This document shows, one piece after another, positions 19,554 to 34,084 of a DNA stretch of 64,000 nucleotides. The stretch lies in the NCBI RefSeq assembly GCF_004168285.1, contig NZ_SEWF01000017.1, positions 1-64,000 of the forward strand, read 5' to 3'. The notes beneath the pieces were generated by a model. It made no database searches, was not told the origin of the DNA, and saw only the letters and a program-made list of their open reading frames with translations. This DNA is from Emticicia agri (GTDB taxonomy: Bacteria > Bacteroidota > Bacteroidia > Cytophagales > Spirosomataceae). Position numbers and translations under genes: made by a program. Within the stretch, counting starts at the first letter, position 1; the number at the start of each line of letters is the position of its first letter.

Positions 19554-20846
19554 ATGTCTGTCCAAACATCGCTCTATCGTGATACCGAAATCTTCGATTT
19601 AATCACGAAAGAAAACAATCGCCAATTACATGGTATTGAACTGATTGCTTCCGAAAACTTCGTTTCGCCACAAGTAATGGAAGCTGCGGGTAGTGTACTT
19701 ACGAATAAATATGCCGAAGGGCTTCCGGGTAAGCGTTATTATGGAGGCTGTGAGGTAGTTGACCAGGTTGAGCAGATTGCCATAGACCGCCTGAAGGCTT
19801 TATTTAATCTTACATGGGCTAACGTACAACCACATTCAGGCGCACAAGCTAATATGGCTGTTTTCTTGGCGTGTTTACAACCGGGCGATAAAATTTTAGG
19901 CTTTAATCTTTCGCATGGTGGACACCTTTCACACGGTTCACCTGTAAATATCTCAGGTAAATATTTCCAACCTTTTTTCTATGGCGTTGAACAGGAAACA
20001 GGTTTAATCGACTGGAACAAAGTAGAAGAGACTGCGCACAAAGAAAGACCAAAATTAATTATTTGCGGTGCATCTGCGTATTCTCGTGACTGGGATTATG
20101 TACGTCTCCGCCAGATTGCCGATTCTATCGGTGCTATCCTTTTGGCTGATATTTCTCATCCTGCCGGATTAATCGCTAAGGGTTTATTAAACGACCCCTT
20201 CGACCAATGTCATATTGTTACTACTACTACACACAAAACGCTTCGTGGTACACGTGGTGGAGTGATTATGATGCGTAACGACTTCCCGAATCCTTTTGGT
20301 ATTACTACCCCTAAAGGTGAGGTAAGAATGATGTCGTCGTTGTTGGATTCAGGCGTATTCCCTGGCACTCAAGGTGGCCCGTTAGAGCATATTATTGCCG
20401 CTAAAGCCATTGCTTTTGGCGAAGCCCTGACTGAGAATTTCTATAACTATGCCATACAGGTTCAGAAAAATGCCCGTGTAATGGCTACTGAATTTGTCAA
20501 CCGTGGTTACAAAGTTATTTCAGATGGTACAGATAATCATTTAATGCTGATTGACTTGCGTCCGAAAGGTTTAACTGGTAAAATCGCTGAAAACTCGTTG
20601 ATACAGGCAGATATTACTGTAAACAAGAATATGGTACCATTTGACGATAAAACTGCCATGACGACCTCTGGTATGCGTGTAGGAACAGCTGCCATGACTA
20701 CCCGTGGACTGGTTGAAAAAGATATGGTAAGAATTGTAGATTTGATTGATGATGTCTTAATGAATCATGACAAAGCAACAACTGTTGCGGCTGTTAAAAA
20801 AGAAATCAATACCTGGATGCAGGATTATCCTTTATTCCAGTTTTAA
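19554..20846 (+). CDS. glyA: Serine hydroxymethyltransferase
   Basis: A 430-residue cytosolic PLP enzyme that interconverts serine and glycine and charges tetrahydrofolate with a one-carbon unit. PLP-binding K228 sits in [53 protein letters not shown] and the [10 protein letters not shown] Asp-x-x-His motif are all intact. The length matches the family. Monocistronic, with its own -7 element and terminator. Confidence 0.97.
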
Positions 20847-20877
20847 GATTAGATTCTCATACCAGTAAAAATAAGAA

Positions 20878-20905
20878 AAGCGTGGTTCAAAGAGCCACGC
20901 TTTTT
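20878..20905 (+). terminator. Terminator of glyA
   Basis: AAGCGTGG(T) pairs with (G)CCACGCTT around a short AT loop and ends in TTTTT. Confidence 0.85.
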
Positions 20906-20948
20906 GTCTAAACCTTAACTAAACCGTATGAAAATAAGAATCTTTATT

Positions 20949-21110
20949 AGACTTGTTGTGATGAAAAGTTTCGAGTAAAAAATCAAGTCATTTTTTGCTT
21001 AGTTGAGGCTTGTTATTGAGTTCATAGCAGAGCTATGGATGAAATAACAAACGAAAAGTAAGCGAAAAAGGGCTATTTTTGACCGAAATTCTTTTCATCG
21101 CAACAAGTCT
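20949..21110. repeat. 162-bp palindromic element, copy 1
   Basis: The outer arms AGACTTGTTGYGATGAAAAG match as inverted copies (20949-20968 and 21091-21110) with one difference. Inverted complementarity continues, imperfectly, all the way to the centre TAGC-AGA-GCTA at 21025-21035. The element fills almost the whole gap between glyA and the minus-strand gene at 21115, ending four bases before that gene's stop. It shares length, centre and internal blocks with copy 2 at 29092-29253. Confidence 0.8.
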
Positions 21111-21114
21111 ATTA

Positions 21115-21465
21115 TTAACCAATTACCTGGCAATCAAAATCTTGTTTAATAGCGAAGCACTCAAATTTTGCTTTTTCAAAAGACTCAAATGCAATGCTTT
21201 TGTTCTGAAACAACTTCTCTGTAAATAAACTGATAATATAACTGGCAAACATTTCTACAAACGACTGCTCAGTTGCGCTCTCCTCACATTTTGTTTCAAT
21301 AGTAGTCAATGAAGTTTTTATAGCTTGTACCTCTGTTAAAGCTACAGATTTATTACCAGCCTGATTAAGAATGCGCTTCTGTCCATAACTATTATGAGGG
21401 AAACTCAAAGCCATCGAATTGAGGCTGATTAATAGAGTTGCGAATAGTAATAATAGCTTTTTCAT
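21115..21465 (-). CDS. Small secreted protein of unknown function
   Basis: A 116-residue protein with a signal peptide (about 1-19, LLLLFATLLISLNSMA) and a mature part of about 95 residues with three Cys (TKCEES, KFECFAI, DFDCQVIG), which could form disulfides in the periplasm. No family is recognised. It is transcribed alone toward the palindromic element. Expression is plausible because the coding frame has a normal signal peptide and no disruption. Confidence 0.6.
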   Translation of the reverse strand: MKKLLLLFATLLISLNSMALSFPHNSYGQKRILNQAGNKSVALTEVQAIKTSLTTIETKCEESATEQSFVEMFASYIISLFTEKLFQNKSIAFESFEKAKFECFAIKQDFDCQVIG

Positions 21466-21823: not shown

Positions 21824-22726
21824 TTAATACTCCCACAAATTATGTTCAAATTCCATCAACTCATGCTCTAATTGCTCTGACTTAAGCATACCTTCACGAG
21901 CCGATTTGTAGATATCATCTAAATCTCTGTCGCTGGCATTTGATTTTTTAGTAATTCTGCCATGGAACAAGCGTAATTCAAAAGCATCAGCTAAGTTTTT
22001 GTGTTGCGCTACATTGGCTGCATTGTACCAGATACATTTTGGATTAGAACGGAAATAACGCTCTAAATCTTTATATCTGAAATAAGCTACCGGACGGTCG
22101 AAACCTAAGGTAGTTTGTGCAGCCGGAATAACAATTCCTAACGACTGAATATCGAAGTACTGACGAGAGCGTTGTTTGTCAAAAATCCAATCTTCTTTCA
22201 ACTCAAGTGTAGTTAGCTGGCTCGGAAAATACTCGGTTGCACTGCTGGCAATAGCTGTTGGAGTAGAAAAACCTGCGCCTGTGGTATCAGTAGCAGTAGT
22301 AGCTTTATCGCCACCACCACCCCAGCCGTCGTCACTGCCGCCGCCTGCAGGAGTTTCAGCACCAAAACCTGCGTCTTTTTCTTCCTGCGATAGTCCACCA
22401 CCTTCTTCTTTCATTTGTAAACGCTCACTAAATTGTTCTAAAGTCAATTTAGTTGTCAATGAGTCATTGGTGTAGGCATCAAGCAAACCTGCTTTTACGG
22501 CTTCCATCAAATGCTTGGTAATCTCGGCACCTTTGGCAAAAAGAGGTTGATTCTGTTTTTCTCTTAAATCAATTTTTCTCCAAAGCGTTGTTTTGTACAT
22601 AACGTTTGAATCATTAATCGGACGCACCGAAAGCGGATTCAGATTGTTATTTGTTTTTTCCTGAGCTACTGCTAACTGGCTGGTTATTAGAGCAACACCC
22701 AAAGCCATGCCTTGTAATTTTCTCAT
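21824..22726 (-). CDS. gldN: Gliding motility/T9SS protein GldN (PorN)
   Basis: This 300-residue periplasmic protein forms, with the GldK lipoprotein, the ring-shaped T9SS component under the outer membrane. A signal peptide spans 1-21 (ending AVAQ). The family pattern includes the mature start with VRPINDSNVMYKTTLWRKID, and the DLERYF, WYNAANVAQHKNLADAFELR and KSEQLEHELMEFEHNLWEY blocks. A Gly/Ser/Asp-rich linker (about 110-145) is specific to this lineage. It is the last gene of the run gldL-gldM-gldN, 23 bases after gldM. Confidence 0.94.
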   Translation of the reverse strand: MRKLQGMALGVALITSQLAVAQEKTNNNLNPLSVRPINDSNVMYKTTLWRKIDLREKQNQPLFAKGAEITKHLMEAVKAGLLDAYTNDSLTTKLTLEQFSERLQMKEEGGGLSQEEKDAGFGAETPAGGGSDDGWGGGGDKATTATDTTGAGFSTPTAIASSATEYFPSQLTTLELKEDWIFDKQRSRQYFDIQSLGIVIPAAQTTLGFDRPVAYFRYKDLERYFRSNPKCIWYNAANVAQHKNLADAFELRLFHGRITKKSNASDRDLDDIYKSAREGMLKSEQLEHELMEFEHNLWEY

Positions 22727-22749
22727 TAGCTGAAATTTATAAATTATTT

Positions 22750-24348
22750 TTAATTCAAGGGTACTGTAACAATGACACTTCCTACGTCAACTGATTCAAT
22801 CTCGCCTTTGAAGTTTCTACGTTCTACTTTTTTTACTTCAATTACATAACGGTCTCCTGCTTGTGCTTGTTGTGCAAGGCTTGAAATATTTGCAGAGCCA
22901 CCGCCCGGTACATTTCCTACACGCTTGCTACCACGGGCAAGGTTTACTTCAAACTCAGATACCCGATAATTTGCGTCTTTAGGATTGGTAGCCTTAAAGT
23001 TTTCGTCAGCTGCAGCTACAGCTACAATACCTCTTAAACCTGCAGCAGATTCACCTCTTTTCTCATCCAGTCTTTTACCACCTTGTGTAGTGAAATAAAC
23101 GGTTGGTTTAGGCACACGACGAACTTTGAAAGGGAAATCTTTCAATTTATACCCACCATTGTTCACGCTTAAAACTACTTGTGCAGAATTAGGCACAACG
23201 GTTACTTTTCCGCCACCGCCCGGAATAAATTCTGCGCCAGACCCACCGAAAGTAGGCGCATATAAAGCACCTAAACCAGGAGATGATGTTTGCAATTCAT
23301 TGGCACATTTAAAGTATAATGGCGGCATAGAAGCAGACTCTATCTGTACAGAAGGTTGCAATACAGTATAAGTTTCTTCTTTGTTCATCGTTTTCATGCT
23401 TCCATCCGGAGCAGGATAAGATACGCTTGCGTTATAAGAGCGTTTCAACTGTCCATTTTTATCATACTCTCCACCTTGTGCAGTAATTTCATAAACCCCT
23501 CTACCATCTTTAATAGGTAATGCAGTACCATTGATACTGATACGAGGCGTAATAGATTTTGAATAGGCCCCGATAGCCACTTCTGCATGGTATTTCTGGC
23601 CTGCTACTACGGCACGGGCATCAGGAATAACTACTGCAAAAATTTCATCAAATTTGATTTCTTTAATCCCTACCTGAGTCGCCAGGTATTCCAATACCTG
23701 ACTTTCTAAGCGACGGGCTTCCGATTGTTTCTGGCTTAGTACTGCCAAAGCTGCCGGAACTGGTGTTTGGGCAAAATATAATTCAGAAAAATCCTTATTT
23801 CTTGTCGATGCATCCGTTTTAGCCAATGCCGGGTCTTGTGAAGCATCAATAGCTAATTCAGAGAATTTAGTATTAGGCGCAGCGAATTTTTGAAGAGCTA
23901 CACTAAAATCATTCAGTTTTTTCTTCAATTCGTATCCTTTCCCATTTTTATTAGCACCAACCATTAGAATAGCTACTTTTTCTTCTTCGGAAGGGTTTTT
24001 CACACCCCCTGTTACAGGGTCGATTCCGCCACCTGCGTTGATTACTTCCTGCTTTAAACCAGCAATATAACCGTCTATTTCAGCAGTCATTTTTCTTACT
24101 TCATTTGCCTGACGTAATACATCCGCATACTTTGCAGCAGTTGCATCCTTCTCAATTTTTTCTTTAATTGCTTGCACTGATTTACCGTTTGCATCATTTG
24201 CTGCTGAATTTGATCTTTCTATACTATTATTTAATAGTTGAAATTTCTGTAAAATAGCATTACTTATCTGGAGTGCCAACATTGCCGTCAGAACCAGATA
24301 CATCATGTTGATCATCTTCTGACGTGGTGACTCTTTTCCGCCTGCCAT
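22750..24348 (-). CDS. gldM: Gliding motility/T9SS motor protein GldM (PorM)
   Basis: A 532-residue protein whose N-terminal helix (about 12-32, INMMYLVLTAMLALQISN) pairs with GldL in the inner membrane, while the large periplasmic part (helical D1 domain and beta D2-D4 domains) reaches the GldKN ring. The GKESPRQKMINMMYLVLTAM start is the hallmark of the family. It uses the proton motive force to drive secretion and gliding. It lies between gldL (103-base gap) and gldN. The length is normal. Confidence 0.96.
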   Translation of the reverse strand: MAGGKESPRQKMINMMYLVLTAMLALQISNAILQKFQLLNNSIERSNSAANDANGKSVQAIKEKIEKDATAAKYADVLRQANEVRKMTAEIDGYIAGLKQEVINAGGGIDPVTGGVKNPSEEEKVAILMVGANKNGKGYELKKKLNDFSVALQKFAAPNTKFSELAIDASQDPALAKTDASTRNKDFSELYFAQTPVPAALAVLSQKQSEARRLESQVLEYLATQVGIKEIKFDEIFAVVIPDARAVVAGQKYHAEVAIGAYSKSITPRISINGTALPIKDGRGVYEITAQGGEYDKNGQLKRSYNASVSYPAPDGSMKTMNKEETYTVLQPSVQIESASMPPLYFKCANELQTSSPGLGALYAPTFGGSGAEFIPGGGGKVTVVPNSAQVVLSVNNGGYKLKDFPFKVRRVPKPTVYFTTQGGKRLDEKRGESAAGLRGIVAVAAADENFKATNPKDANYRVSEFEVNLARGSKRVGNVPGGGSANISSLAQQAQAGDRYVIEVKKVERRNFKGEIESVDVGSVIVTVPLN

Positions 24349-24451
24349 ATATATAGTAGTATTATACGGTTAGTAAAAATTTTAATTTAGAATTATTTTT
24401 TATCTCTCAATAATAGTTCCAAAACTTTATTGACGATAAAACAGATAACTA

Positions 24452-25267
24452 TCAGTTACCTCTCATAGCTGATAACATACTGCCGTAAACGTTATTCAAC
24501 GAGCTAAGGTTATTAGTCAATTTAGACATTTCTGATTTAAATTGTTGTGTTTCCTTAGAGGCCTCAGCCATATCCTGCATGGCAGTAGTCAAATTGCTAT
24601 AGAAAGCATTCATTGCTTTCAGGTGCTTGTTAGTATCTTGTAATTCTAACTCATATACGGCGTTCAATGCACCCATGTTTTGCGTAATTTTACCAAATTG
24701 CGCTCTGTACTCCTGTGCGTCTTTGGTAGCATCTGCCATACTGTTCATAGCTGTTACGGCTGTTCCGTAAGCACTGTTCATGGCAGTTACCTGATTTGAT
24801 GCTGTTTTTACATTTTTAGCATATTCGCTCGTTGCTACAGTAGCATCGCTCAGATCTGACATTTTAGCTACCTGTCCTGTTAAACTTTGGATACCTGATT
24901 TAAGGTTATCGAAAATATCAGGAGTAATTTTGGCATTTGCCAGCATATCGTCCATTTTAGCTGTTAAACCTGCACCTTGTGTTGGGGCAATATTTCTTTT
25001 TACAGGTTCGCCTGTATAATCATCAGCTAATTCAGGGTAAGCTCTTTCCCATTGGTAATCTACCGGAGGAAAAAGGAACGATTGGATTGCATATAGGACA
25101 AAAATTACTGCTTCTGTTGCTAATCCTATGGGAAGTAAAAATGCAAGGGCCTCATAGTGCATGATTTTACCCATTGCTCCTAAAATTACAACTGCTGCAC
25201 CCAATGCGTAAATTGTAGGTATAAATCTATCCCAAAAGAAATTCGTACTACTATTCTTTGCTGCCAT
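24452..25267 (-). CDS. gldL: Gliding motility/T9SS motor protein GldL (PorL)
   Basis: A 271-residue inner-membrane protein with two transmembrane helices (about 17-37 and 43-64) and a long cytoplasmic coiled-coil tail. The membrane part keeps polar residues known to matter in this motor: Y20, K34 and H37 in helix 1 and E52 in helix 2 (GLATEAVIF), the presumed proton-carrying Glu. The tail has repeating AMNSAYGT/AMNAFYSN/SLNNVYGS units, which suggests helical repeats. Five GldL with two GldM form the motor (established for the family). Confidence 0.95.
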   Translation of the reverse strand: MAAKNSSTNFFWDRFIPTIYALGAAVVILGAMGKIMHYEALAFLLPIGLATEAVIFVLYAIQSFLFPPVDYQWERAYPELADDYTGEPVKRNIAPTQGAGLTAKMDDMLANAKITPDIFDNLKSGIQSLTGQVAKMSDLSDATVATSEYAKNVKTASNQVTAMNSAYGTAVTAMNSMADATKDAQEYRAQFGKITQNMGALNAVYELELQDTNKHLKAMNAFYSNLTTAMQDMAEASKETQQFKSEMSKLTNNLSSLNNVYGSMLSAMRGN

Positions 25268-29014: not shown

Positions 29015-29091
29015 CCAAATTGCGGGGTTTCAAATACAGAGTTTATTTCTGATATTAATTTTCAACAATAAAGTCAGTTTCATCAACTTTA

Positions 29092-29253
29092 AGAAACTGT
29101 TTGGATTAAATTTTTTGAATCAAAATGTATTATTTTTTATAAAGACAAGGCACTAAAACCGGAGCTTAGCAGAGCTAAGTGAGGATTTTAGTAACGCAGT
29201 ATTTGTAAAAAAGAATCATTTTGGGCAAAACAAGATTAATTCAAACAGTTTCT
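29092..29253. repeat. 162-bp palindromic element, copy 2
   Basis: The outer arms AGAAACTGTTTGRATTAA occur inverted at both ends (29092-29109 and 29236-29253) with one difference. The complementarity continues to the centre TTAGC-AGA-GCTAA (29166-29178). It has the same length as copy 1, an identical TAGCAGAGCTA centre and similar inner blocks such as ATTTTTTnnnnAGnnnAGGC on the left arm. It fills the gap between the hemD-like gene (77 bases before its start) and the DUF4271-like gene (13 bases after its stop). Confidence 0.8.
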
Positions 29254-29266
29254 AATTTCCTAACAC

Positions 29267-33917: not shown

Positions 33918-33932
33918 GGATATTCTACATCT

Positions 33933-33976
33933 ACCGTGGCACGGCTATCCTCGTCCAAGAATAGCCGTGCCACGGT
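33933..33976. repeat. GC-rich palindrome 1 (REP-like hairpin)
   Basis: ACCGTGGCACGGCTAT (33933-33948) and ATAGCCGTGCCACGGT (33961-33976) form a perfect 16-bp stem with a 12-base loop. It is much richer in GC than the surroundings and has no T run. It contains GTGGCACG, shared with the second hairpin. Confidence 0.8.
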
Positions 33977-34039
33977 TAATTTTGGATTAGACTATTCAAT
34001 ACTTTTAAAATCCCACAAGGTAGTTTATCCGAGTGCTTA

Positions 34040-34084
34040 AGCGTGCCACCCCCTTATTCGGGGCGAGTAGAGGGGTGGCACGCT
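34040..34084. repeat. GC-rich palindrome 2 (REP-like hairpin)
   Basis: AGCGTGCCACCCC (34040-34052) and GGGGTGGCACGCT (34072-34084) form a perfect 13-bp stem. The loop has its own partial CCCC/GGGG pairing. It ends four bases from the stop of the minus-strand gene and carries GTGGCACG, like hairpin 1. Confidence 0.8.

Follow-up and report, generated by a model that had tools for sequence, protein, structure and literature searches.

What is the long palindrome that lies between glyA and a small open reading frame in this genome, and why does a second one with the same centre occur nearby? The source genome (G000) is a 6.65-Mb draft, and the window, i.e. the whole stretch of 64,000 nucleotides that was analysed, covers positions 1-64000 of its contig C17. 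An earlier note on this DNA had described two near-complete palindromes of 162 bp, and had offered a mobile hairpin (MITE or REP-type), a structured RNA or a chromosome-architecture site as explanations.

Two long hairpins in the window

Near-complete palindromes were confirmed at both places by sequence and by folding, and each copy formed a single long imperfect hairpin. The DNA fold of a 150-nt stretch reached -30.2 kcal/mol (z -6.49) for copy 1 and -26.1 kcal/mol (z -6.76) for copy 2, and in both cases 0 of 200 dinucleotide shuffles was equally stable. Copy 1 extended from 20949 to 21110 on the + strand, taken as the strand whose centre reads AGCAGAGCT; it carried class C ends (AGACTTGTTGTGA) and was supported by the palindrome, the fold, empty sites in related genomes and a core match with the model R3. 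Copy 2, with class A ends (GAAACTGTTTGGATTAA), extended from 29093 to 29252 (+) and was supported by its palindrome and fold, many paralogues and empty sites. The length of 162 bp was therefore right for copy 1, while copy 2 measured 160 bp and 162 bp only when one flanking base was counted per side. The same triplet flanked each element on both sides, ATT for copy 1 (20946-20948 and 21111-21113, from the sequence and an empty allele) and TAA for copy 2 (29090-29092 and 29253-29255, from the sequence).

The common centre TAGCAGAGCTA was located in both copies, at 21025-21035 and 29167-29177, as had been claimed. Matches of R2, a core-only covariance model trained on 24 copies of classes A and B with copy 1 left out, placed the conserved core at 20985-21074 (+) in copy 1 and at 29127-29217 (+) in copy 2, which belonged to the R2 training set. 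The core of copy 1 was composed of a T/A-tract stem, an asymmetric internal loop and the central cap at 21025-21035.

The neighbours of copy 1 were glyA (PF00464) and an ORF of 116 aa that had no Pfam match; those of copy 2 were a gene of the hemD type (PF02602) and one for a DUF4271 protein. No gene was found inside the 160-bp element, in agreement with the earlier note, and the sole match in an Rfam scan of the window was a tRNA at 1202-1274. Two other features of the window were recorded. Between copies 1 and 2 lie genes of type IX secretion, namely gldN, gldM and gldL (21824-25267), and two neighbouring GC-rich inverted repeats (33922-33987 and 34040-34084) have GTGCCAC-type blocks in common; no relation of these repeats to the core of the hairpins was seen in a search up to E 10.

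Copies, end-classes and lengths in the genome

The pattern TWAGCAGAGCTWW occurred at 17 places in the genome and at 0 for the reversed control, so that chance can be dismissed, and 15 of the 17 were hairpins of this kind (L011 and L012 were not). When R2 was run on the genome, 79 matches at E <= 0.01 were obtained among 150 scored candidates, which gave 69 core places after removal of 10 opposite-strand repeats. Further copies with common internal blocks, on which the earlier note had made its reading depend, were thus present. At least five terminal-repeat classes were distinguished: class A with ends GAARCTGTTTGAGTTAA, which includes copy 2, class B with GAACCTGTTTAAACTT, class C, that of copy 1, class D with GAAGTTGTTTAGGRTTTT and class E with GAGTATGTTTAAATTTT. 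The 28 core places fetched late comprised 25 of class E, one of class D and two that were undelimited.

A set of 49 elements was defined from 59 candidate pairings after 10 chance or overlapping ones were removed by hand. The lengths were 159-162 bp in 26 elements, 173-220 bp in 17 and 39-122 bp in 6, full-length copies without inserts being about 160 bp. The short ones (L051, L101, L151, L066, L152 and L153; 39-122 bp) were class-A derivatives with both ends kept, as if the middle of the hairpin had been deleted.

Comparison of the 17 long copies with insert-free sisters revealed 30 inserted stretches, of 14 bp (16 cases), 16 bp (five), 12 bp (four), 15 bp (two) and other sizes (three). The inserts read CCGCGCGGCGTCCG, CAGTTCCACTGCGG, CTGCGTGGCAGCCG, GCGCAGCGGCGCACCG and similar, and were GC-rich in an AT-rich genome. 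Sequences of the CCGCGCGGCGTCCG kind (15-mer, up to 2 mismatches) matched 132 times in the genome and 0 times in the reversed control, and none of this type was found in the window. Clean micro-inserts were seen in the hairpin copies L007, L001, L010, L016, L113, L120, L045, L059 and L154. The same micro-insert was observed in other palindromic repeats, namely L137, L320 and L326 (ends near TGAACTATGATTTA), L140, L318 and L330 (GAGGGCGTCTCAAAAG), and L321, L329 and L336 (CCTCACCCCAACCCCTCTCC), and none of these three repeat families gave an R1 match to the hairpin core. Very small mobile repeats were reportedly described in cyanobacteria by Elhai in 2008.

Target duplications and empty sites

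Exact 3-bp target duplications flanked 30 of the 49 elements (shuffled mean 8.2, maximum 17), the other 19 having none, and matches of 1, 2, 4, 5, 6 or 7 flanking bases were not in excess among the 49, apart from one 5-base match. TAA, TTA or TGA made up 20 of the 30 duplications; the targets of class B were varied AT-rich triplets. The result was repeated in other genomes, where 27 of the 43 elements that could be delimited among 51 loci showed the duplication (shuffled mean 8.1, maximum 16). Duplications delivered by one end-finder were left uncounted because that method rewarded duplications.

The site of copy 1 was empty in three genomes of the same genus (G102, G104 and G105). In G105 it read AATCTTTATTATTAGCC, with a single ATT where the hairpin of G000 stands between two. 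The site of copy 2 was also empty in these three genomes, with a diverged junction. Additionally, G104 carried a class-B hairpin between AAA and AAA (L282, G104:C12:524700-525500), downstream of glyA and about 80 bp upstream of the empty copy-1 site, which was missing from G000 and G105. One short glyA intergenic region took two independent insertions, one in G000 and the other in G104.

Matching ends, a 3-bp duplication, empty sister sites and a multi-copy superfamily of nearly fixed length mark the palindrome as a transposable element of the non-autonomous kind. Terminal inverted repeats, target duplications, many copies, filled and empty sites and the lack of a transposase gene are the features by which a MITE is recognised, and these hairpins can safely be called a foldback-MITE superfamily that duplicates 3 bp of its target. 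The mobile hairpin of the earlier note has strong support in these data.

These sites also bear on a static role. Both window copies are long hairpins directly 3' of gene ends, which would suit a chromosome-architecture site or an ordinary terminator. Their presence varies between sister species, and 0 terminator-like sites were found at 20800-21300. The hairpin is too long for an ordinary terminator, and glyA has a short hairpin and T run of its own near 20880-20907 (by eye), so this candidate was rejected. The architecture site lost its support because species of a single genus differ in the copies that they have, and a static role of either kind is hardly conceivable.

A probable IS5-family partner

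An intact IS5-family element was found at G000:C22:60762-61710, with ends GAAGCTGTTTAAACTTTT and GAGGCTGTTTAAACTT and AAT on each side. Its transposase of 287 aa had the domains DUF4096 and DDE_Tnp_1 above the Pfam cut-offs, by which it is of the IS4/5 type of DDE transposases, and it matched NCBIfam IS5_3 at E 4.3e-29 with 101.8 bits, under the cut-off of 110. Relatives with the same kind of ends occurred in Spirosoma, Emticicia, a Flavobacterium and others. Class B ends differed by one base from those of this insertion sequence, and class D ends (L393) were identical over 17 bases to the ends of the insertion sequence in L298. No autonomous partner of classes A, C and E was seen among the matches listed, the pattern search having been run without C and E ends. 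This counts against mobilisation by IS5 enzymes, as does the occurrence of relatives of the transposase (E <= 1e-20) in only 7 of 22 hairpin genomes, compared with 36 of 222 genomes overall (P 0.044).

The likenesses of the class B and D ends suggested that the hairpins are probably mobilised by IS5-family transposases. The nearest groups within the family, which we take to be the IS1031/ISL2-like ones, resemble the hairpins in their ends and 3-bp duplications; the insertion sequences carry a transposase gene, whereas the hairpins hold none. IS1031/ISL2-like elements have a TNA target preference, to which the TAA, TTA and TGA triplets of the hairpins conform and from which the varied targets of class B depart.

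The same properties bear on an origin as a REP/BIME-type element with a RAYT (TnpA-type) enzyme as its mover, which the earlier note had also had in mind. The hairpins are palindromic, intergenic and dispersed like REP sequences. The latter are palindromes of 20-40 bp (PMC3733652) and duplicate no target, whereas the present elements are about 160 bp long, duplicate 3 bp and have IS5-family-like ends, so that this origin is very improbable.

A common core under different ends

The relation between the end-classes was evaluated with R3, a sequence-only core model from whose training copy 1 was left out. The loci tested with R2 and R3 had been found by R1, whose training included copy 1 and L020. 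R3 detected 25 of 40 held-out elements at E <= 0.01, including copy 1 (E 6.9e-10), and wholly missed 14, including L255, L257 and L265; R2 found 39 of the same 40. Elements with GGAAC ends were matched by R3 at E 3e-11 to 1e-7, and those of another family with TACCAATTT ends at 1.9e-8 and 2.2e-7. Among four class-E loci R3 gave one match, at E 0.65, and in a 7-kb search it recovered 24 of the 28 late-fetched places, most of them class E, at E <= 0.0031. Neither model matched any of 11 loci that had other palindromes or the micro-insert alone.

The core of copy 1 was 0.69 identical to class B and 0.50 to the class of copy 2, compared with a shuffled null of 0.29 (sd 0.05). Core and end identities were 0.69 and 0.46 for class A and GGAAC, 0.69 and 0.41 for classes B and C, and 0.68 and 0.53 for class C and TACCAATTT, the null applying to the core figures and the end figures standing without one. 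The arms of copies 1 and 2 had been called divergent. They look unrelated because each copy has terminal repeats of a different class, but the cores are related. Judged by the R3 matches and by core identity, the end-classes are one superfamily in which the core is common and the ends are uncoupled from it, either through exchange of ends or through ends that evolve much faster than the core.

Within the family, R1 scans detected the hairpin in at least 22 of 222 genomes, the own one among them, and in at least 10 of 36 genera. Across the phylum it was detected in at least 6 of 395 genomes: the own genome, four that belong to a second family of the class and one of a more distant family. Outside the own family, at least 5 genomes in two other families carried it. 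These prevalences are lower bounds, as no more than 15 candidates per genome in the family and 8 in the phylum were scored under strict filters; in most sampled genomes no hairpin was detected. The length outside the own genome was 158-162 bp in 42 of 43 elements and 150 bp in one, a near-constancy that is partly built in because the model favours such lengths. A blastn search with one class-B copy gave no match in plasmids and phages.

It may be suggested, tentatively and as less than an even bet, that the folded core, a hairpin of constant length whose asymmetric loops are fixed and whose cap is TAGC-NNN-GCTA, is a module with a putative activity of its own, which was fitted with several IS-type ends and spread over Bacteroidota. 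If this is true, the core structure would be read by a host or transposase protein, as single-stranded DNA or RNA, and would ride whichever transposase is available.

Conservation of the fold

In 26 copies of the own genome, double changes were found in 24 of 33 stem pairs, counted on a structure predicted from the same alignment. Paired cells reached 93.0% compared with 74.1% after shuffling (0 of 500 shuffles reached 93.0%) and 39.7-51.5% with slid partners. Of five measures of covariation, further pair types alone were not above shuffles. Within subfamilies, two-sided changes exceeded independence in A1 (40 vs 7.6) and B2 (14 vs 2.9), and numbered 2 each in A2 and B1.

Among 51 elements from many genomes, conservation was highest in the T/A tract, with 1.30 and 1.36 bits, and in the central cap, with 1.29 bits. 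At 0.81 and 0.67 bits, the internal loops were more conserved than the adjacent outer stem segments, which were the lowest (0.33 and 0.34). The inner stem had 0.46 bits in its left arm and 0.75 in its right arm, the latter no lower than the loops.

Inheritance of length and paired arms from one ancestral foldback MITE, with the arms matched by template-switch homogenisation alone, would leave the fold without function. The large excess of two-sided changes in A1 and B2 agrees with it, and hairpins are known to be maintained by template switching (PMC8794818). Against it, the internal loops at fixed places resist homogenisation and are, across several genera, more conserved than the adjacent stem segments, and the length is constant over genera and end-classes, albeit favoured by the model. 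We regard this explanation as rather unlikely, though it keeps some weight.

The main rival to a role at the DNA level is that transposition merely spreads a conserved core which acts as a functional RNA or in cis as a site of RNA processing (e.g. by RNase III), in which case the core in neighbouring transcripts would fold and then be cut or bound. Covarying stems with internal loops of higher conservation are consistent with such an RNA, as is the known action of ERIC and Correia hairpins in transcripts (PMC10969869, PMC2229807). G-T cells outnumbered A-C cells on the modelled strand by 74 to 37 overall and by 23 to 15 within subfamilies, which leans towards, rather than proves, folding of one strand. 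Against this, double changes within subfamilies (29) were more frequent than G-T intermediates (19; distinct events), and promoters around copy 1 were not in excess (1 found, 1.8 in shuffles). Gene arrangement also showed no preference: 44 of the 49 elements were evaluated with a crude ORF caller (>=80 aa), the other 5 being in loci below 1000 bases, and the 42 that could be placed lay between tandem (23), divergent (12) or convergent (7) genes, with none inside an ORF. Among 20 hairpin loci searched at E up to 1, Rfam returned four matches, all below the gathering threshold. The structured RNA of the earlier note thus gained covarying stems and conserved loops, but no Rfam family at threshold, and we consider an RNA function unlikely. 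The class-B loop GATGAG...CGAAA, which we liken to a hammerhead motif, was considered separately; the third stem and the cleavage site are missing, and a hammerhead-like core was rejected.

We favour a putative DNA-level role of the core, combined with template switching that homogenises the arms. The hairpin ends would be recognised, and the element moved, by an IS5-family DDE transposase supplied from elsewhere. The inner hairpin, with its T/A-tract stem, asymmetric loop and TAGC-NNN-GCTA cap, would be retained since its folding as a single strand is important, most likely at the level of DNA. In a single-stranded or extruded element, folding would join the two ends as the base of one stem, which would favour transposition, and the arms would be kept matched partly through template-switch copying between them. 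A foldback MITE with probable IS5-family mobilisation, a core putatively kept for its fold (likely at the DNA level) and template-switch arm matching is, taken together, a reading in which we have good confidence. The earlier suggestion that structure rather than sequence is kept, or that copies are homogenised, was a fair description, since the data fit both processes.

Comparison with known systems

MITEs are usually recognised by their ends, and their interiors drift. In these hairpins it is the ends that change, whereas the interior, which has covarying stems and conserved loops, persists from one genus and family to another. An old question, whether the hairpin of a foldback MITE is a by-product or a working part in transposition or RNA control, becomes testable with simple constructs. 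The superfamily also provides presence/absence markers for the genus, and in it arm-to-arm homogenisation and nested 14-bp insertions have left a natural record.

In a literature search that left subscription journals mostly outside, the end and micro-insert strings had no match in full text, which is no proof of novelty, and no MITE described for Cytophagales was found. None of the titles and abstract openings covered by this search named such an element.

ERIC, YPAL and Correia/NEMIS are likewise short mobile sequences of intergenic regions, and their transcripts fold into long stem-loops; they differ in lineage and sequence, most having TA at their ends (PMC2229807, PMC10969869). ERIC (RU-1) is 127 bp and YPAL (RU-2) about 168 bp long (PMC2759123). 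Unlike these, the present hairpins duplicate 3 bp, have ends like those of IS5 and combine one core with several end-classes. In the Bacteroidota symbiont Cardinium, MITECca01 is also an IS-derived MITE, but it is about 240 bp long and derived from the IS982 family (PMC9769881). The IS5-derived MITEs of Porphyromonas gingivalis (BrickBuilt, MITE293/700 and 464/PgRS) are, like the present hairpins, non-autonomous elements of Bacteroidota, and their ends match IS5-family elements of the same genome (PMC4596501). They combine similar ends with unrelated interiors and with duplications of varying length (PMC4596501). The present hairpins show the reverse pattern, with conserved interiors and differing ends in elements of about 160 bp that make 3-bp duplications.
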